DNA of 64,000 nucleotides. Source: Candidatus Binatia bacterium (GTDB lineage: Bacteria; Desulfobacterota; Binatia; HRBIN30). Shown here one piece after another: positions 2,883 to 28,501 of this stretch. The translations under genes and the position numbers were made by a program. The stretch lies in contig CALAMI010000016.1 of assembly GCA_937925685.1 (NCBI GenBank), forward strand, positions 5,001-69,000, in the 5' to 3' direction. Positions within the stretch are counted from its first letter, which is position 1. Every line of letters starts with the position of its first letter. The notes beneath the pieces were generated by a model. It saw nothing but the letters and a program-made list of their open reading frames with translations. It made no database searches and was not told where the DNA came from.

Positions 2883-3539
2883 TCAAACGACCCCCTCGCG
2901 ACATACCACGACGCGGCGTTCGGTAACGATCTTGTCCACGCGCACGTCCCACTGCTCGTCAGGCAGAAAAGGTACCCGCTGAAACTCATAAGCCAAAGCA
3001 ATCACCAGTACCGTAACCTTCTCTCGCAACCTCGCCAACAAGCGATCGTAGGCCCCCGATCCGCGACCTAGCCGTACCCCCGTGCTTGACCAAGCCACCG
3101 CCGGCACATAGGCAACGAGGCGCCCAACGTGAGAAAGCGATGAGCCGCCGAACCTCGGTTCCCACAATCCGAACTTTCCACGGCGCAAAGGGGCACCCGG
3201 CTGCCACTGAACAGCGGCCCACTCCCCATCGACAAAAGCCGGTAGAAAAAGGGGAAGCCGGCAGCTAGCTGCCCTACAGAGGAGAAGGCCAGTCGGAACC
3301 TCGTTCTCCTCCGCCAAGTACAGGAGAACACCGCCTCCGGAAAGAAAATCCTCGTGGTCAGCTGCACGCCGCGCTACCGCGTAACCCAGGCCTTGCTCGA
3401 CGCTCCACGGGCTTAGTTGGCGCCGAACCGCACGAAGCGCCGAACGTACTCTGAGCTTTAAAGCTGGCGAGCTCGATCGCAACGCGTCGGCTCCCTCTCG
3501 GCAAGAAGCTTGCCATGGCCTAATGGCACCGTCGCACAT
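2883..3539 (-). CDS. fau: 5-formyltetrahydrofolate cyclo-ligase
   Basis: ATP-dependent enzyme that converts 5-formyl-THF to 5,10-methenyl-THF in one-carbon metabolism. The family signature GRGSGAYDR (normally G-x-G-x-G-x-YDR) is present, followed by the typical tail VDKIVTE. The ATG at 3539 gives 218 residues, about 25 more than most relatives, and its GAGG sits only 2 nt away. A TTG at 3482 with GAGGGAG about 8 nt upstream gives a 199-residue protein starting near the conserved basic helix and may be the real start. The gene stands directly downstream of a candidate structured RNA ending in eight U. That recalls the ssrS (6S RNA)-ygfA pair of proteobacteria. Confidence 0.9.
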   Translation of the reverse strand: MCDGAIRPWQASCREGADALRSSSPALKLRVRSALRAVRRQLSPWSVEQGLGYAVARRAADHEDFLSGGGVLLYLAEENEVPTGLLLCRAASCRLPLFLPAFVDGEWAAVQWQPGAPLRRGKFGLWEPRFGGSSLSHVGRLVAYVPAVAWSSTGVRLGRGSGAYDRLLARLREKVTVLVIALAYEFQRVPFLPDEQWDVRVDKIVTERRVVVCREGVV

Positions 3540-9465: not shown

Positions 9466-10514
9466 CCCTCACCAACGCCACCACGACACCTGCCGCTTTT
9501 AGCCCGCAACGAGCTGGGTACGCAACCCGCGGCTTGCGGACCTTCCAAACGCTGGCACCAGACATTGCACTCTTCTTGCTCTAGTACCCGGCGCGTTTGT
9601 TAGAGAGGGAAGGCCAAAGCCGCCATCCTTCCTAAAGTTTCTCCGTACGGTACGCTGGTTGCGGCTCAGCCCACGACCCCTATGCCAGAATCTTTGGCGA
9701 CCGGGTAGCCGAAAGTTTTTCGGCTACCAAAGTGCAGTCAGACGGGTTGTCCAACACACAACCCCACGAAAAGGAGTGCCAGCTTGCCCCGCGCAACGCG
9801 CAGGAGCTGGCAAGCGATCTGAGTTCCCAGTGCTGCCTCCGTTCCATTCGCACCCCTGCCGGAAACAGTACCGACGGTGTTGGATCATGTGCTAGCTGCT
9901 CGTGCGTCTTACCTGCAAGTGTTGCCACACGACGTCTTCCTCTCCTCGAGCCCCAAGCGACCGTAAAAGGGGCAGAGCCGGCGGCGGTAGGAGTCGGTCG
10001 CGACTTACGATGATGAGGCTTTGCGCAACAGTCACGAGCAGCAACGGCAGTGTCGTCGGCGATCACGCTCGATCGCCCAGCATGGGTAGCACGACGGCGG
10101 GAGCCTGTCGCGCGTGCACTACCAATTCGGCGCCGTCAGCAACCCGTGGTGGAGCCGAACTCGCGCCGGACGGGTCGCTGCATGAAGCGGCTGCGAGCAC
10201 GCAACGGCTTTTGTCAGGGTAGCGGCTCAAGGATGCCCACGCGCGGAGGTAATCCCGATGCGGGTGGCCTCGACCAAGCTTGCGGTGCAAGCGATTCACG
10301 CATTGTGGACCGGGGCCGGGTGTTACCTTCAGCAGACCATTCTGCAAGCCGGCCACGCCACGGGCAGAAGAAGCAGCGAGGGAAAACTGCCCATCGAAGC
10401 ACCTTGCCGATGTGCACCAAATGTGAACAAATTGCGGGCATCGCGTTACTGGTCCAAGAAGTTAACGGACAAACGTCACTGGTGGGAAAAGCTCGGCAGC
10501 AGGAGGGTGGAAAC
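9466..10514. other. Gene-poor divergent interval between smc and the FBP aldolase/phosphatase gene
   Basis: About 1.05 kb without a convincing gene. An in-frame extension of the downstream gene runs back to 10050 but reads as low-quality Arg/Gly/Ser sequence and has no ribosome site. A perfect 25-nt inverted repeat at 9704-9728 is the only clear element. Promoters for smc (minus) and the plus-strand gene must lie here; no strong -35/-10 pair was identified. Confidence 0.5.
9704..9728. repeat. Perfect 11-bp inverted repeat
   Basis: GGTAGCCGAAA (9704-9714), a 3-nt spacer, then its exact reverse complement (9718-9728). No T run follows on either strand. It lies about 240 bp upstream of the smc start and about 790 bp upstream of the plus-strand gene. 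It could be an operator or RNA hairpin; no second copy was seen in the window. Confidence 0.5.
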
Positions 10515-13175
10515 ATGCTAACGCCGAATGTGAAAGAATCGCGGGAGGAATTCCTTCGACTCGAAGCCTCGCAGGCGAATCACAGGGTTGTGGCAGCGTT
10601 CCATGCCATTCGTCTCTCGCCACTTTTGCAGGCCAACCCAGAGATTCCCCTGGTATTCTGTGAGGTACTTCGGGGACAGCTTTCAAAACTCGTCCAAGAC
10701 GGAACGGTGCGCGGGTTTCTGGTCCAACGGTTTGGGGCGGATTTGCTCCTGCAAGTGAACCAGCTCGCCGTCAGCCCTTATCAGGCAACTCCCGATGAGC
10801 GTGTTTGGCAGGCAGTGCAGGCCGCCCTGACAAATGCAGAAAAGCTCCCCCCGCAGCTCCTTGCTCAGCTCAATCCAATCTTTACGGATTCTCTCCCGAG
10901 GCAACTCCAGTGGTTCCACGTTCGCACACTTCGTTTCCCTTTTTCTGAACGGGGGGCCGAACCCATCCTCGTCGCAAAACTCATCTCTGGTGCGATCGGT
11001 GGGTTTAACCGGATGCTGTTCAACCTGTTTTTCCATCCGGACAAAGGCTCCCATCAACGGCTCGACGGTACCCGCTTTATCGCCCTCGTCGAGCACGTGC
11101 CCACCATACTCCGCGGTGAAACAAAGCGACGCGTCTATTTTTTCGGCGATCGACCCGCCGAACCGATCTTGCACCTGATCTATCCGAACGCCCCGCAGCC
11201 TGTAACGATAGAGGCTGATCAGGTCGGAGACTGGGCGGAGATGCTGTCCCTGGTTGCGAACCCTTGCGAATGGGCGATTGCCGCGATCTATGCCGTTCAG
11301 GGCCGCTTCGTTCATGATGGCCACTCTTGGCAAAGTACCCGCCATGAGCCTGTTGCGCTGGTGGGAATCCAAGCGTTCGATGGCAACGCGCAAAACGAGC
11401 CCATCCTGGTTGTACGTCTACAAAGCGGCCTCCCTGCGGTCGGGGAAGCTCACTTTAACTTAGGGGGCGACATGCACATCACCGTCGGTGGGCATCAAGG
11501 AGGCTACCACGTCGCCGTTCTGCCCGTAAGCCTCCGAGAAGCTGCGACAGCGACTTCAGAACCTGGCACCACCCGCATCGCAGCTTACTCGTACCAGTCG
11601 TACGATAATGGCCGCATCCCCCCTTCTCACGACATCGTCGACATCTTCGGACAAGACATGGTACAGACACGTTGGCTCCAACAAAGAGCCATCAAGTGCG
11701 CGCGCGTTCTTCTGGGACACGGGGAGTTTCAACCCTTCGTTACAGCCGAACACGCCGAAGCGAGAGCCCGGGAACAAGCCTCGAAGTTCGCAAGCTGCTT
11801 TTCGGCGATTCCGGCAACAGAACGTGGGGAAAAGGATCCGGTGGTCCTCAAGGTTGCACAGCCGGGAACCCTCGTGCTTTCCGACATCAAGGCGGATGGG
11901 GGAGGCAAGCTTGGCCACACGGCTCCGCCAACACTTTTCCAAAGCGTGGCCGAGGCGTCCCTAGAGGAGGCGACAAGGAACGGGCTTATCCATACCTATA
12001 AAGTGTTCGCGGTTGGCGACGACCTTCACCTACTCATGCTCCACGACCGAGGCGTCGATAACAACGACGTGCACCTGCTCGCTTTCCGCACTTTTTGGCG
12101 AGCGGTTTGGGTCACCGAGATCCTGCGATATAAGCCCTACGGTCTCGCCCAGGACTTGAGGATCGGTCCCGCCACGAAAGGCAAAACGGTGGAAGAACTC
12201 GCAGAACCTAGTGAGGCCTTCGTGCACCTTCTCGAAGAATTCCTGCCGGACGCGGAACGCGGGGCGCTGCCTCAAATCCGCCACGCGTTGAGCCAGTGGC
12301 GCGCTGGAAGGTCAGAAACCGAAGTCCGTCGGCCTTTTGCGGGAAATGTCACCGGGCAGGGGCCGGGATTCGCCGAATTGCCGTTGATCAGTGCTGACGC
12401 GGTGGTCGGGCTTGTAGCCGCCGATAAAGCAGGCCCGGCGGCATTTAACTTACCGATTTGGCACGCAGTGAACGCTGCTCTCGCTCAAACGGAGTTGAGA
12501 GCGCGCTTTGGTGCATCCTTAGCACTGGAGATTTTCGATGTGCACGAGCACCGACGCATTTTCCTCGATGCAGTTGCTCACCGCCTGGAAATTGTCCGAC
12601 TCTTGGGCGCAACCAACCTCTTCAACGTAAAACGAGTTTGGTCGCTGCAACGGGTCATTTCTGACCCAGCTCTTGTTGTGCACCACTTAGACCAATTGCT
12701 ACTCGCTGCCTCCACCGAAAAGCTGGCGCTCATTGCTGGTGGCGAATATGTGGGCAAAGATGACCCGGTGTTACTTGGAGTCCCCGAGCTCGTCGAGCCT
12801 GTCTTCCAATTGATGCGTGACGGGTTCTACCTCACCCAAGGAGACGAGCGCGGATCACACTACATGATGCTCGTTCCCAAGCCGCTATCGGAGGCCATCG
12901 CAACGATTCGCAGTCGCGGTCTGGAGGTAGGGCTACGTGTAGGGGTCGCAGCCGGTCAGCACCTCGCACTCGAAGACGTTTACGCTCACCCCGGTTACTT
13001 CGAGGCCAGGGAGCGAATCGAACGGATCAACGATCTCCTCTGGACCGCACAAGGTTCCGAATTCACGCCCATTGGTGTTGGCGCCCGCGATGTGGAGCCT
13101 GCGTATCCGCTCATGAAGGTATTACGAAGAATCACCGACGACGACTCTCGCTACGGAGTGTGGCTGGACGCTTGA
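10515..13175 (+). CDS. Tandem-duplicated archaeal-type FBP aldolase/phosphatase (class V), first copy degenerate
   Basis: Protein of 886 residues with two FBPA/P units; the family is normally one unit of 360-400 residues making fructose 6-phosphate from triose phosphates. Copy 2 (about 452-870) keeps the catalytic marks: SDIKADGGG (about 456), GDD (501-503), AQDL (545-548), AADK (635-638), and YVGKDD (745-750) with the Schiff-base Lys and catalytic Tyr, plus RGSHY (779-783). Copy 1 (about 30-410) has none of these, but keeps RLQSGLPAVGEA (301-312), which copy 2 has replaced by GVPELVEPVFQL. Start ATG 10515 has AGGAGG 8 nt upstream; an open extension to 10050 is rejected. Gluconeogenic role is inferred from copy 2. 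Confidence 0.85.
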   Translation: MLTPNVKESREEFLRLEASQANHRVVAAFHAIRLSPLLQANPEIPLVFCEVLRGQLSKLVQDGTVRGFLVQRFGADLLLQVNQLAVSPYQATPDERVWQAVQAALTNAEKLPPQLLAQLNPIFTDSLPRQLQWFHVRTLRFPFSERGAEPILVAKLISGAIGGFNRMLFNLFFHPDKGSHQRLDGTRFIALVEHVPTILRGETKRRVYFFGDRPAEPILHLIYPNAPQPVTIEADQVGDWAEMLSLVANPCEWAIAAIYAVQGRFVHDGHSWQSTRHEPVALVGIQAFDGNAQNEPILVVRLQSGLPAVGEAHFNLGGDMHITVGGHQGGYHVAVLPVSLREAATATSEPGTTRIAAYSYQSYDNGRIPPSHDIVDIFGQDMVQTRWLQQRAIKCARVLLGHGEFQPFVTAEHAEARAREQASKFASCFSAIPATERGEKDPVVLKVAQPGTLVLSDIKADGGGKLGHTAPPTLFQSVAEASLEEATRNGLIHTYKVFAVGDDLHLLMLHDRGVDNNDVHLLAFRTFWRAVWVTEILRYKPYGLAQDLRIGPATKGKTVEELAEPSEAFVHLLEEFLPDAERGALPQIRHALSQWRAGRSETEVRRPFAGNVTGQGPGFAELPLISADAVVGLVAADKAGPAAFNLPIWHAVNAALAQTELRARFGASLALEIFDVHEHRRIFLDAVAHRLEIVRLLGATNLFNVKRVWSLQRVISDPALVVHHLDQLLLAASTEKLALIAGGEYVGKDDPVLLGVPELVEPVFQLMRDGFYLTQGDERGSHYMMLVPKPLSEAIATIRSRGLEVGLRVGVAAGQHLALEDVYAHPGYFEARERIERINDLLWTAQGSEFTPIGVGARDVEPAYPLMKVLRRITDDDSRYGVWLDA

Positions 13176-20960: not shown

Positions 20961-23672
20961 CTAACGAACCCGAACAATCAACTTGCGCGTGCTACTCCAG
21001 CGCCCTGACTCGTCGCGTACCCTAACGGAAAATTCCGTCGTTGCTCCTGCAGGTAAAGCCAGCACGGCGTCAATAAAACCGCAGAATTGTACGGTCGTTC
21101 CTGCACCAACGAAACGATATTGCCCGTCGTCAAATAAGGTGCATGCTTCATTGGCATTGCGACCCCTCGGCTGGCCACTTCCGTCCTTGAAGCGGCATGC
21201 CAAATCGTTGACAACGTCAGCAAGCCGTTGCGAGCCAGGCAGCTCAAGTGCAGCGAGCCACGCAGGCACCCCTCCAAGAAGAGGTGCTGTGTCGTCGCAA
21301 ACTTCCCCCGATCCATTTCCAAGAGCCTGTGACGACACGATCGCCAGGTCAGGAAGAACTTCCGGGCGGTTGGGATCCCACCGAAAGGTCCGCATTCCAA
21401 CAGGAGTGTTGGCACCCCCGGGACGCGCCTCGACCACGAGGGAGAATCCCCAGCCTGAAGAGCGTTCGAACACAGCCGTTCCATCCTGCAGCACCGCAAC
21501 CGGAGTCACAAGTCGGTCGTCGGCACGAGTGATACCGAAAAAAGTAATGACTGGCTCGGGAGGGATGGTCGGGCTTGGCGTGGAGGTGATCGTTGGAGTA
21601 CGGGTAACGGTTCGGGTCAACGTTGGGGATGGTGTGGCCGAGGGAGTACGCGTCTGGGTTAGCGTCCGCGTGGCTGTAGCGGTTCCGGTTTGCGTTGGTG
21701 TGCGGGTGATCGTTCGCGTGCGGGTAACAGAGGGCGTCGAGGAGGGCGATGGAGTCACGGTTGGCGACCACGTCGGGGAATAAGTTGGCGTTTGCGTCCG
21801 AGTGGCCGTTGGCGTCCAAGTTCGTGTTGTTGTCGATGTACGGGTCATCGTCCACGTCGAAGTCGAAGTTGGAGTCACCGAGCGTGTCCAGGTAGGAGAA
21901 ACGGATGGTGACGCGGTTGGCAGCGGAGACAACGTAGGCGTAGACGATGGGCGCGGGCTTCTGCTGGGCGTGGAACTAGCAGTTGGAGACGAAACGAACG
22001 TCGTCGGTGTGGGGGCGAACGCGGAAGTAGCGCTCGCTGTTGCAGACCGCGAGGGAGTTACTGAAGCACGAGCTGTTCGGGTGAGTGTTGGGCTTCCAGT
22101 CGCAGTCGATGTCAGGGTCGGCTCTTTCGTACGCGTGGCGGTTACACTGGCAGTAAGGCTACGCGTGGGGGTGGGGGACCGATCCGATACCGGGGTCCAG
22201 GTCGCTGTCGCCGATGGTGACGGTGTCAACCTTTGACCCGTCGGAGTTTTCGTTGGCGTCCGTGTGCCTGGACGTGGCGTAAACGTTACCGTGTCCGTGG
22301 CCCGCAGTGTCGGTGAAGGGGTTGGAGGCATAGTTGTCGGTCGTACGGTTCGCGTCGCAGTCTTCGGAGCCGTCGAAGTCCCCGTTGGACTTCGCAGCAT
22401 CGTGGGAGTGGCCGCTAACTGCGTCGCCGAAGCGGTCGGGGCTCTCGTCGCCGTAAAGGATCGGGTGATCGTCACCGTTGGAGACGTTCTAGGGCTGACT
22501 GGGGACAGAGGCGGCGTAATTGTAGCCGGCGGGGCGGTTGTAGGCGGTGGTGTAAAGGTTGCTGTCGCTGATGGGCTCGGGTGGGGGCTTCTGGTAGCCG
22601 TTCTGGTTGCAGTTTGCGTGGGGGCACCCGGGGTAAACGTTGGCGATAAAGCCGGGGACAAGGGAAGACTCCAAGAGGAAGTCCGAGTCGCGGTTGCACT
22701 GCGAGTGGGGGTTAAAGTTTGGGACCGCGTTGGAGAGGGGCTAACAGAAGCGGGCAAAGTAAACGTGGGCGACAGTATCGGCCGGGGAGTTGCGGTAGGA
22801 GAGGCGGTGCTCGTCGGAGTCGGAGAATTGGAAACTTGTATCTGCGTCGCCGTGGGAGTCGTCGTCGGCGAACTGGTCGGCAGCGGCCGAGTTCCCACTC
22901 GTACAATCATTTGAGACGGAAGACCCAGGTTGCCACCCTTATCGCGCACCCTCACCGTGACCACGGTGTCACCAACCGGAAATGCGCGCGAAAAGGGGAT
23001 AAGCCCGCAGAATTGCACGGTTGCCAACCCCGTAGAAACAAACCGCGGTCGGCCGAACTCATCCACGGTGCAAGCACCTTGGCGGTTGACCGCCACGCTG
23101 ATTCCACAACTGGCATCCTGCAAACTCATGGTCACGCGCGGATCGTCGCCAAAATCGGGCGGATCTACCGCTGCAATACCGCCCTCGCACACGGCGCTAT
23201 CCCCGTTGCCCAACGGCCGACTGAAAAGAATCTGGAGGTCGGGACGCTCTATCCCAGTGGGTCTTACGGTTACTACCCCCGTGCCCACCGGCAAACCAGA
23301 ACCGCCCGGAGCCGCCTCAACGACCAGGTGAAACCCACTTCCACCAGGTCTTTGGAAAACTGGCAACCCGCGCTCTTCTCCCGACGGCGAGATGATGGTG
23401 CCATCAGCTCCCGCAAGGCCGAGAGAGATCACGCGTGGGCCCAAAGCCGCCAGCAAATGAGCCTTGGTATCCTCAACAAGATCGGCAACGCTAACCCGTC
23501 CGTCGCGATTGCGGTCGAGACCAGATGCAGAGGGATCGGAGGCTACGAACAAGCACTGGCGTAATAACTCGCCAGCGAAAACCAACCGCGCGAGATCGCA
23601 CGAAACCGGCTGTGCCCTCAACGAACCATTGATCACGAGGGCAACCAGCATGACCGAAACCTTTAAAGCCAC
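20961..23672 (-). CDS. Large secreted protein with two related domains joined by a Thr/Pro-rich linker
   Basis: A 903-residue exported protein. A signal peptide (about 1-20, cleaved near LRA-QP) is followed by an EF-hand-like loop DRNRDGRVSVADL. Domain 1 (about 90-260) and domain 2 (about 700-903) are clearly related: both contain G-FxLVVEA-PGG, LGNG, a Cys pair, TVQFCG and a final VRVRD...IVRV strand. Between them lies a linker of about 440 residues, almost only Thr, Pro, Ser, Ala and Arg in TPT-x-TPT patterns. The GTG at 23672 follows a GGAGGGAGG site; ATG at 23651 is the alternative. No family was recognised for the flanking domains, which look like beta-sandwich surface modules. A cell-surface spacer or adhesin role is inference. 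Confidence 0.8.
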   Translation of the reverse strand: MALKVSVMLVALVINGSLRAQPVSCDLARLVFAGELLRQCLFVASDPSASGLDRNRDGRVSVADLVEDTKAHLLAALGPRVISLGLAGADGTIISPSGEERGLPVFQRPGGSGFHLVVEAAPGGSGLPVGTGVVTVRPTGIERPDLQILFSRPLGNGDSAVCEGGIAAVDPPDFGDDPRVTMSLQDASCGISVAVNRQGACTVDEFGRPRFVSTGLATVQFCGLIPFSRAFPVGDTVVTVRVRDKGGNLGLPSQMIVRVGTRPLPTSSPTTTPTATQIQVSNSPTPTSTASPTATPRPILSPTFTLPASVSPSPTRSQTLTPTRSATATRTSSWSLPLSPALSPTFTPGAPTQTATRTATRSPHPSPSATATFTPPPTTAPPATITPPLSPVSPRTSPTVTITRSFTATRAPTASATQLAATPTMLRSPTGTSTAPKTATRTVRPTTMPPTPSPTLRATDTVTFTPRPGTRTPTKTPTGQRLTPSPSATATWTPVSDRSPTPTRSLTASVTATRTKEPTLTSTATGSPTLTRTARASVTPSRSATASATSAFAPTPTTFVSSPTASSTPSRSPRPSSTPTLSPLPTASPSVSPTWTRSVTPTSTSTWTMTRTSTTTRTWTPTATRTQTPTYSPTWSPTVTPSPSSTPSVTRTRTITRTPTQTGTATATRTLTQTRTPSATPSPTLTRTVTRTPTITSTPSPTIPPEPVITFFGITRADDRLVTPVAVLQDGTAVFERSSGWGFSLVVEARPGGANTPVGMRTFRWDPNRPEVLPDLAIVSSQALGNGSGEVCDDTAPLLGGVPAWLAALELPGSQRLADVVNDLACRFKDGSGQPRGRNANEACTLFDDGQYRFVGAGTTVQFCGFIDAVLALPAGATTEFSVRVRDESGRWSSTRKLIVRVR
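21557..22890 (-). repeat. Low-complexity Thr/Pro/Ser coding repeat
   Basis: About 1.3 kb encoding irregular TPT/TRT/SPT units inside the secreted protein gene. The plus strand is correspondingly rich in GT, GG and CGTT, so several long spurious open frames (Val/Gly-rich) appear opposite. Units vary in length and sequence, so this is protein-level composition and not a tandem DNA repeat of fixed period. Confidence 0.85.
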
Positions 23673-25999: not shown

Positions 26000-26650
26000 A
26001 AGCTAATCACGAGGTTGCCGGAACGTCACCAACGCTGGGCAAAGGTTGGCGAGTGTTCGCTTGTCTGCGGAATAAGTTTACTCCCCCGAAGGCGGCCGCT
26101 TTCAGTTGGCGGGTCACTTAGTCTCCGAGTAGCGAGTGCGTCACGCCAGCGGGAGTTGGCGTTCGCGACTCGCAAGCCTGAGCACAGTTCTGTGGCTTCC
26201 CGACCAGTCAAGCCCTTAATTTGCGGACTTCCGATTCCAGAGAATGACACTCGTGCGGATGAAGCTCAACCTAATTCAAGGGACGGTGGCCTAGGAGGAA
26301 TTTACCCGGTAGCACCAACGTGGGCATAAACGCCTCTGCCGATCAGTACATTTGGGTACACAACCCTGAGCGCCGTGCAATGTCAATTCCACGCTGTGCA
26401 GTCGTCTGGTTTGTCCCGACGTCTGCTTCCGCTCACAGTTCCCTCACCACCAAGCCGTTGTGCTCTCAATTTTTGCGTAAGGCCCACATCAAGGCTCTAA
26501 GGTTTACAACGCGACCCGAAGCAAATTGCCGCCGCTCAACTTGCTCGGCCGTAAAAGACGTTAAGAATTCCGTCGTCTTGTGGGGAACTCCGAAATGTCC
26601 TACAGGCGGCCAGGCCTTCCGATTTGCGATCTCGTCGGGGGGATAGAGTC
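26000..26650. other. Gene-poor interval upstream of the ETF gene
   Basis: About 650 bp. Short open frames on both strands do not resemble known proteins. An isolated AGGAGGAATTT at about 26294 is not followed by a credible coding frame. The right end carries the ETF ribosome site (GGGGGG before 26651). Confidence 0.45.
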
Positions 26651-28501
26651 ATGCATGTCGTTGTATGCCTAAAACAGGTGCCATCCGTGGCGGCGTTGAA
26701 ATTCGATCCAACGAGCAAAACGTTGCAGCGCGAGGGTGTTCCTTTAGAAATTAACTCGTTTGACTTACGCGCCCTGGCGTGGGCGGCAGACCTGAAACAA
26801 TCGCTTCCGGAGGTGGAGATCACAGCGCTTACCTTGGGGCCGCCTCAGGCACGGGAAGCGCTCATTGACGCACTAGCACTGGGGGCTGACCAAGCAGTGC
26901 TCTTGAGCGATCCCAACTTTCGTGGTTCAGACACCCTTGCCACGGCGCGCGCATTGGCTGCCTTTCTTCGATGGAATCCTGCCGAGCTGATTTTGTGCGG
27001 CCGTTACAGCGTGGATGCCGAAACCTCGCAGGTCGGGCCGGAGCTGGCCGAGCTTCTCTCGCTCCCCCACGTCTCGCTTGTGCAAGGCATCAGGGTAAAT
27101 CGAGAGGCACCAAAACTCTTGGAAGTCGAGCGAGAAACAGACTGGGGTTGGGAGAAACTTCAAGTCGGTACGCCTGTCCTGCTGACCGTAACAGAAAGCA
27201 TTGCGGCGGAGCGGTTCCCCTCCCGGAGCGAACGCGAGCGCGCGGCAGGCAAAGCTATCCGCCAGCTATCGGCCGCAGACCTTGGCTTGCGTTCAGACGA
27301 CGTTGGCTTTCGAGGCTCACCGACCTGGGTGCGGGAGCTAAAGGAAATTTCCACTTCTCGGCGACAGCTGGTTTGGCAGGAACAGGACCTTCGCTTAAAT
27401 ATCGAGAAGCTTTGCACGACTCTCTTCGAGGAATACGGGGCTTTCCACGCTTGGAAGGTGTCCCCTCAGTCCGTCTTGGCGCCAACGTTGCCACAAAGAG
27501 TGGACGTCGAGCCTAGAGACATCCTTGTCCTTGGAGAGCTTCATCAAGATCAGTTGCGTCCTGTGACGTTCGAACTAACGGAGAAGGCTCTCGAGCTTGC
27601 CGCAAGCACACGCGGAAGGGTGCATTTGGTCCTTTTCACCGAGGAAAGAAGCAATGTCGAGGACGAGCTGCACGGGCTGAGCGTCGAGCAAGTGATGGTC
27701 ATTTCTGGTGCCGCCTGTGCGGCCTACTTACCATGGGAACACGCCAACCGTTTGGTCCAGGTCATCCACCAGGTGAAACCTCGGTTTGTTTTGGGCCCTT
27801 CGACAGCTTACGGACGGGATGTCTTACCGCGTCTGGCCGCGCGTTTGGGCCTTGGCTTGACCGCGGATTGCATTGACCTTGGGATCGAACTCGACGGTTC
27901 CCTCGTTCAGTACAAGCCTGCGTTTGGCGGCAGCATCGTAGCCGCGATCTCCTCGCGTACGCTACCGCAGGTCGCAACGGTACGCCCAGGTGTGTTTACC
28001 CCTGCGCCAAGAAAAAGGCCTGAACTCCCCTCCGCCCGACTGGTGTACATTGACAGTGGGCCAAAGCAAAAAGATTTTCCTGTACGCCGTCTGAATTACG
28101 GCCTCATTCCCGATCTCGGCGCGGATCTAGACCACGCCGAGGTTGTGGTCGGGATTGGCAGAGGGCTCGGTCAGGAGGGAATCGAAATTGCCCGGGCATT
28201 TGCGGGCAAGCTTGGGGCTGCACTTTGCACGACGCGCGACGTTGCCGACGAGGGATGGCTGCCTCGGCAATTGCAGGTCGGTCTTACCGGACGCTCCATC
28301 GCACCGAAACTTTACCTTGCATTGGCGATTCGTGGAGCCTTCGAGCATATGGTGGGAGTGCACCGTGCTGGGATCGTGGTCGCGGTGAACCGCAATCCCC
28401 GTGCCCCGATTTTTCGCCAAAGTGACTTAGGCCTGGTTGCTGACGTTCGCGAGGCGCTTCCTTTGCTCGAGCAAGAGCTACTGAAACGTTTGGGTGCTTG
28501 A
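26651..28501 (+). CDS. Single-chain electron transfer flavoprotein, beta and alpha subunits fused
   Basis: A 616-residue fusion of the two ETF subunits, which are normally separate genes of about 250 and 320 residues. The beta part (about 1-255) begins MHVVVCLKQVPSVAALKFD and has LILCGRYSVDAETSQVGPELAE, the AMP/FAD-facing loop. A linker of about 40 residues follows. The alpha part (about 285-616) carries the FAD domain: VGIGRGLGQEGIEIA, LCTTRDVADEGW, QVGLTGRSIAPKLYLALAI, GAFEHM, then NRNPRAPIF. Start ATG 26651 has GGGGGGAT about 7 nt upstream. The protein passes electrons from acyl-CoA dehydrogenases to a quinone reductase; neither a dehydrogenase nor an ETF:quinone reductase gene lies beside it. 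Confidence 0.92.
   Translation: MHVVVCLKQVPSVAALKFDPTSKTLQREGVPLEINSFDLRALAWAADLKQSLPEVEITALTLGPPQAREALIDALALGADQAVLLSDPNFRGSDTLATARALAAFLRWNPAELILCGRYSVDAETSQVGPELAELLSLPHVSLVQGIRVNREAPKLLEVERETDWGWEKLQVGTPVLLTVTESIAAERFPSRSERERAAGKAIRQLSAADLGLRSDDVGFRGSPTWVRELKEISTSRRQLVWQEQDLRLNIEKLCTTLFEEYGAFHAWKVSPQSVLAPTLPQRVDVEPRDILVLGELHQDQLRPVTFELTEKALELAASTRGRVHLVLFTEERSNVEDELHGLSVEQVMVISGAACAAYLPWEHANRLVQVIHQVKPRFVLGPSTAYGRDVLPRLAARLGLGLTADCIDLGIELDGSLVQYKPAFGGSIVAAISSRTLPQVATVRPGVFTPAPRKRPELPSARLVYIDSGPKQKDFPVRRLNYGLIPDLGADLDHAEVVVGIGRGLGQEGIEIARAFAGKLGAALCTTRDVADEGWLPRQLQVGLTGRSIAPKLYLALAIRGAFEHMVGVHRAGIVVAVNRNPRAPIFRQSDLGLVADVREALPLLEQELLKRLGA

Follow-up and report, generated by a model that had tools for sequence, protein, structure and literature searches.

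A double FBP aldolase/phosphatase-like protein from Candidatus Binatia with conserved residues sorted between its two modules

Introduction

In the FBP aldolase/phosphatase (FBPA/P), a single active site is remodelled to carry out two unlike reactions. We take D12, H19, D53, D54, Q95, D132, D233 and D234 to be its metal-ligand positions, K232 to be the Schiff-base lysine, and D287 and Y348 to be substrate ligands. Structure papers on the enzyme are those of Nishimasu from 2004 and of Fushinobu and Du from 2011. The role of Y229 was identified from the title of PDB entry 3t2g (a Y229F variant with DHAP) together with the Y/F sequence difference. In F1-ATPase, a different system, the catalytic beta subunit is paired with a homologous non-catalytic alpha subunit, which contributes a residue to the neighbouring site.

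FBPA/P, or type V FBPase (PF01950, NF041126; PDB 3r1m, 1umg and 3t2b-g), has a single module of about 360-400 residues. Two reports present it as a heat-stable bifunctional enzyme (PMC12965863) and as a proposed ancestral gluconeogenic enzyme (PMC3267732). The literature that we found on FBPA/P and FBPase_3, in a search that also missed key structure papers, contained no description of a double form. Here we report an 886-residue protein with two FBPA/P-like modules, copy 1 and copy 2, encoded in a 64,000-nucleotide stretch of a Candidatus Binatia contig (the window).

Results and discussion

Two FBPA/P-like modules in one chain

The coding part of the double gene spans window positions 10515-13172 (+), with an ATG at 10515; the frame is open further 5' to a GTG at 10050, and the starts of the relatives lie near 10515 (Table 1). 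The genome that holds the window is a 3.7-Mb assembly of 51 contigs. The window probably belongs to the HRBin30 order of the Binatota, whose genomes were recovered from thermal springs (PMC8262859).

The whole protein matched Pfam FBPase_3 in three stretches (1.4e-63, 215.7 bits against a gathering score of 25). Copy 2 (residues 452-886) is a clear match, and the first 450 residues by themselves still reached 47.6 bits (1.8e-12, residues 292-409). The N-terminal part of FBPase_3, about profile positions 2-149, was matched as well by copy 1 of four other doubles. When a profile of six copy 1 sequences was compared by hhalign with nine single FBPA/Ps, the two aligned over 339 columns (probability 99.3%, E 1.3e-20), hence the duplication was full-length and not partial. 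The preliminary description of this DNA had proposed an 886-residue protein with two FBPA/P units, to be abandoned if only one FBPase_3 match were found or if copy 1 fitted another family better. The proposal stands: the open reading frame and both full-length modules are there, and the sole other Pfam match of copy 1 had E 0.059, below the cut-off of that family.

The protein nevertheless departs from the standard enzyme. It scored 202.5 bits against the NCBIfam equivalog NF041126, where the cut-off is 520 and the single enzyme L031 obtained 589.8. Moreover, 886 residues in two modules exceed the single-module size, and the RxQ..PAxGE motif, which should share a module with the catalytic residues, occurs only in copy 1. 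As the Pfam cut-off is passed and these three features depart from the family, we do not file the double as a standard FBPA/P; it is a fused pair derived from FBPA/P, and its mode of action is probably that of FBPA/P.

Both modules are homologous to FBPA/P over their full length, and copy 2 retains the metal-site and Schiff-base motifs. Unlike FBPA/P, the double has two modules per chain, reciprocal losses between them, a 55-residue insertion in copy 2 and the low equivalog score noted above. The insertion was found in all eight complete doubles and was absent from the aligned single enzymes and aligned copy 1 sequences. The same phylum holds another FBPA/P enlarged by fusion, in which the partner is a SorC-type sugar-binding domain (PF04198) and the FBPA/P part, unlike that of the double, is ordinary and complete (595.7 and 618 bits in L015 and L040, respectively). 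In these two loci, L015:673-2595 (-) and L040:667-2580 (-), which belong to other genomes, PF04198 is C-terminal; open frames of 643-705 aa suggest about twelve further fusions of this type. The F1-ATPase beta and alpha subunits would offer an analogy as a homologous catalytic/non-catalytic pair, of another fold and chemistry, whereas the double FBPA/P has both parts in one chain.

Table 1. Positions of the double gene and its features in the window.
Feature	Position	Strand	Basis
Double FBPase_3 protein gene, 886 residues	10515..13175	+	ORF, Pfam, orthologues
Shine-Dalgarno-like AGGAGGGTG 5' of the ATG	10501..10509	+	Read by eye
Copy 1, putatively non-catalytic FBPA/P-like module, residues 1-446	10515..11852	+	Pfam 1.8e-12 (first 450 residues); hhalign E 1.3e-20
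Copy 1 ERGAEP, residues 145-150; equivalent of E120-R121...E124-P125 of ST0318	10947..10964	+	E, R, E in 8/8
Copy-1-specific conserved block FNRMLF..FFHPDKGSHQRLD.TRF, residues 164-188	11004..11078	+	Invariant columns, six and eight doubles
Copy 1 RLQSGLPAVGEA, residues 301-312; equivalent of R240-Q242-P246-A247-G249-E250	11415..11450	+	8/8 copy 1 sequences
Copy 2, predicted catalytic FBPA/P module, residues 452-886	11868..13172	+	Pfam, alignments
Copy 2 SDIKADGGGKLGH; D12 and H19 equivalents D461 and H468	11880..11918	+	8/8
Copy 2 VGDD; D53 and D54 equivalents D502 and D503	12012..12023	+	8/8
Copy 2 55-residue insertion after QDL, residues 549-603	12159..12323	+	Alignments
Copy 2 AADK; D132 and K133 equivalents	12417..12428	+	8/8
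Copy 2 YVGKDD; equivalents of Y229, Schiff-base K232 (K748), D233 and D234	12747..12764	+	8/8
Copy 2 site of the lost RxQ...GE motif, residues 755-767; Q242 replaced by E758 in 8/8	12777..12815	+	Alignments
Copy 2 RGSHY; R266 equivalent R779	12849..12863	+	8/8

Conserved residues are sorted between the copies

The eight complete doubles were aligned with 33 singles (the 30 best-scoring loci, L007, and two archaeal enzymes of solved structure, ST0318 and that of T. neutrophilus), a sample that favours invariance, being mostly best-scoring loci. A second alignment contained 74 singles, with 40 lower-scoring ones and L048 added. L048:4995-6119 is an intact-looking single FBPA/P gene on a 187-kb viral contig (IMG/VR), with 41% identity to bacterial FBPA/P in the best segment.

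Among the 92 columns invariant in the 33 singles, 41 were kept only in copy 2 and 12 only in copy 1, with 12 kept in both and 27 in neither ("kept" meaning at least 7/8 doubles). The 53 columns kept in one copy only formed 9 runs along the sequence, and as few arose in 1/20,000 shuffles. With 74 singles, the strictly invariant columns numbered 33 (copy 2 only 11, copy 1 only 7, both 7, neither 8), and the 18 sorted columns fell into 5 runs (352/20,000 shuffles). At 95% conservation in the 74 singles, 68 columns were available (copy 2 only 26, copy 1 only 15, both 9, neither 18), with 9 runs over 41 columns, equalled in 5/20,000 shuffles. The contrast between the copies thus survives the broader sample, and the clustering is weaker on the strictest set.

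The presumed metal ligands D12, H19, D53, D54, Q95, D132, D233 and D234 were each found in 8/8 copy 2 sequences. K232 and Y229 were likewise present in every copy 2 and in no copy 1. The seven invariant columns kept only in copy 1 (74 singles) were R121, E124, P150, R240, Q242, P246 and E250. The RxQ..PAxGE motif is nearly universal in the singles (R240, Q242, P246 and E250 in 74/74, G249 in 73/74, A247 in 72/74). R121, E124, R240, Q242 and E250, all invariant in the 74 singles, occurred in 8/8 copy 1 sequences, whereas copy 2 had 0/8 at R240, Q242, E250, E120 and E124, and R121 in 2/8.

In copy 1, the metal and Schiff-base positions are scrambled between species, D54 excepted; at the D53 position, for instance, the eight sequences have A, S, P, H, K, K, H and G. 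The remnants are D54 (8/8), D234 (4/8), Q95 (3/8), D12 (1/8) and D233 (1/8), and for Y91 one alignment gives 0/8 and another 6/8. The preliminary description had placed the metal and Schiff-base motifs in copy 2 without the RLQ motif, an arrangement seen in all eight complete doubles. It had further stated that copy 1 lost all the former residues and kept the RLQ motif. The RLQ motif is indeed retained, as RLQS in 8/8, and most of the catalytic positions are lost, but D54 and, in half of the sequences, D234 remain. Nor is this motif the only part retained, since E120, R121 and E124 (8/8 each) and P150 are kept too.

Two presumed substrate ligands are gone from both copies at the aligned columns, namely D287 (72/74 singles) and Y348 (68/74), so that even the combined residue set is incomplete. 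Copy 2 has R and P there, respectively, in 8/8. Its Y864 sits 3 residues past E861, the partner of E347, and an alignment shift could mask a Y348 equivalent.

Eight of the 74 singles (L085-L091 and L096) lack K232 and mostly also Y229, D233 and D234. They keep D12, D53, D54 and the RxQ..E motif and are perhaps phosphatase-only forms. Since R240, Q242 and E250 are all retained in these eight, the motif does not require the Schiff-base lysine; its role could lie in the phosphatase step or in folding.

Distribution, phylogeny and selection

The preliminary description had called for a search for further proteins with two FBPase_3 domains, and it was productive: the double form occurs in nine genomes of one phylum (G000, G001, G002, G084, G128, G156, G183, G431 and G515), in five family groups (f1, f5, f8, f23 and f32). 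Among 395 genomes of the phylum, FBPase_3 was matched in 127 and the double was found in five (G000, G084, G128, G156 and G183). Beside the doubles, partial FBPase_3 matches were present in G178, G193, G217, G230, G276, G297, G335 and G407. A copy 1 profile gave 17 matches in 148 genomes of the window's class, comprising five doubles (G000, G001, G002, G431 and G515) and twelve weak matches in frames of single-FBPA/P length. The double was present in 3/8 genomes of the class of G156 and in 1/5 of that of G084. Orthologues from the same genus are those of G001 (70% identical) and G002; in G002 the gene is divided between two contigs, with the break at the contig ends. A narrow-pattern scan of genome contigs matched HRbin30 only. 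Plasmids searched with copy 1 and phage records searched with the whole protein gave no match, and copy 1 was not found in viral contigs. An assembly artefact is ruled out, as the identical fusion is intact in 8 genomes.

Each of the nine genomes has the two diverged modules together, joined in a single frame or, in G002, located at the broken contig ends. No full-length stand-alone copy 1 or copy 2 gene was detected in the overlapping sets of 395, 148, 8 and 5 genomes.

In a tree with six doubles, the copy 1 and copy 2 sequences formed separate groups (100/100 each) on very long stems. The copies and the singles lay on opposite sides of a branch that is unsupported (24/0) and at which long branches meet. 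When each copy was analysed separately with 17 singles, neither nested within them.

Identity between doubles was 47-93% for copy 1 and 62-95% for copy 2, copy 1 being the faster-evolving. For G156 vs G128, the sole pair of 28 with dS < 1, dN/dS was 0.18 in copy 1 and 0.15 in copy 2. Copy 1 has 149 columns invariant in eight species, of which 46 equal the single-enzyme consensus; F164 of the copy-1-specific block is not invariant across the eight doubles. A random or decaying copy 1 is ruled out by the dN/dS of this one pair and the 149 invariant columns. Copy 1 is constrained and has conserved blocks of its own.

Genome context

A canonical FBPase is also present in 7/9 genomes with the double, so that gluconeogenesis may depend mainly on an enzyme other than the double. 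GlpX was found twice in each of G000, G001 and G002 and once in each of G431 and G515. FBPase I (PF00316, searched in the carriers other than G431 and G515) was found in G128 and G156, and neither GlpX nor FBPase I was detected in G183 and G084. Strong matches to class I or class II FBP aldolase were obtained in 7/9 carriers. Of the carriers other than G431 and G515, again, G128, G156 and G183 gave strong class II matches and G084 a weak one. The PRK09250-type class I FBP aldolase exceeded the NCBI cut-off in G000 and G431, and G001 and G002 have close relatives of it. At G156:C43:15260-16966 and G128:C314:2362-4068, apart from the double gene, an FBPase I match is preceded at about 200 bases by a match to class II FBP aldolase on the same strand.

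The SMC side of the neighbourhood is common to the genus. Beyond it, no shared neighbour was seen in the ORF lists of the window, L006/L008 (G002), L041, L042, L043, L070, L071 and L045; L045 (G001) was compared by position and length only, and L044 (G128) was left aside. Within these neighbourhoods, an aldolase adjoins the double only in G431 (L070:352-3983), where 23 bases separate the end of the double at L070:3036 from the co-oriented PRK09250-type class I FBP aldolase gene, which starts at 3060. Among the genomic links to FBP metabolism, this neighbour is the best one, and it is a single case.

A possible composite active site

The complementary losses in 8/8 doubles, the occurrence of the modules only together and the similar purifying selection on both support mutual dependence of the copies at the sequence level. 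Interdependent copies had been suggested in the preliminary description, in the form of a built-in heterodimer; the dependence is supported by these observations, and for the heterodimer itself we see about an even chance. In such an arrangement, copy 2 would hold the catalytic centre, with the metal ligands, the Schiff-base lysine, Y229 and the substrate arginine. Copy 1, a partner without catalysis of its own, would retain the elements that the subunits of an ordinary homo-oligomer present to their neighbours, and would lend its R-x-Q/G-E loop and ER-x-x-E segment to the copy 2 site across the module interface. Each chain would then contain one complete site, built from copy 2 and copy 1, and one dead reciprocal site. 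The substrate would be FBP or triose phosphates, and both the phosphatase and the aldolase chemistry may survive.

An RxQ..PAxGE loop that served the catalytic centre of its own subunit would leave copy 2 broken and the copy 1 loop pointless, but both have been preserved. If the loop reaches the neighbour's site in the ordinary oligomer, the reciprocal pattern of loss follows. Duplication and fusion may accordingly have turned a homo-oligomer with a cross-subunit site into an obligate built-in heterodimer with one site per two modules, the metals and the Schiff base coming from one module and the substrate-holding loop from the other, a history in which we place a little less than even confidence. 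Structure prediction for the full double (two extra rows) gave a mean pLDDT of 34, and that for the single FBPA/P of the viral contig a pLDDT of 50, with TM 0.55 to 3r1m. In the low-confidence single-FBPA/P model, the metal-binding D-D-P and the Gln are separated by a strand (243-248). If extended, this strand would place the Gln an estimated ~20 Å from its own lysine, away from its own K/D-D site, which is a weak hint.

The main rival to the heterodimer differs from it only in whether the loop contacts the substrate. In that model, which we regard as unlikely, the RxQ..PAxGE loop and ERxxEP would be interface or folding elements that hold copy 2 in an octamer-like shell, with catalysis residing entirely in copy 2. 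The residues kept only in copy 1 include E, R, P and G, of the kind common in turns and salt bridges, and are retained in the eight singles without the Schiff-base lysine; the many invariant copy 1 columns outside the single-enzyme consensus would also fit new packing surfaces. However, the closely spaced R, Q and serine of RLQS resemble, in our judgement, ligand contacts more than packing, and copy 2 lacks the same residues, which are hence unnecessary for its own fold. The copy-1-specific invariant blocks (FFHPDKGSHQRLD, FGDR, YQS and GRIPP) could instead belong to a regulatory module, the former active-site region of copy 1 binding an effector that controls copy 2. Enlargement by fusion to the sugar-binding PF04198 does occur among the other FBPA/Ps of the phylum. 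Regulation was the second option of the preliminary description and is a weaker alternative to interdependence, in our estimate quite improbable, as it gives no reason for copy 1 to preserve those residues that copy 2 has lost.

The loss of D287 and Y348 from both copies, and an equivalog score far below the FBPA/P cut-off, would also fit a double that had left FBP chemistry and whose composite site accepted another phosphorylated sugar. The canonical FBPase and the strong FBP aldolase matches, each in 7/9 carriers, make an additional FBPA/P partly redundant. Nevertheless, the metal positions, Y229 and K232 of copy 2 are intact in 8/8 and the double of G431 adjoins a class I FBP aldolase gene, and a new specificity seems improbable to us.

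If the heterodimer is real, the sorting of residues between the modules separates catalytic positions from those supplied by a partner, and a natural protein maps which residues of its ancestral enzyme work in trans. The double would also allow the needs of the phosphatase and aldolase reactions to be tested module by module.

Two further frames of the window may be mentioned. An open frame of 903 aa at 20964-23672 (-) had no Pfam match at 1e-4. The frame at 26624-28498 (+), of 625 aa, combines an ETF alpha FAD-binding domain with two electron-transfer-flavoprotein stretches, and is possibly a beta-alpha fusion.
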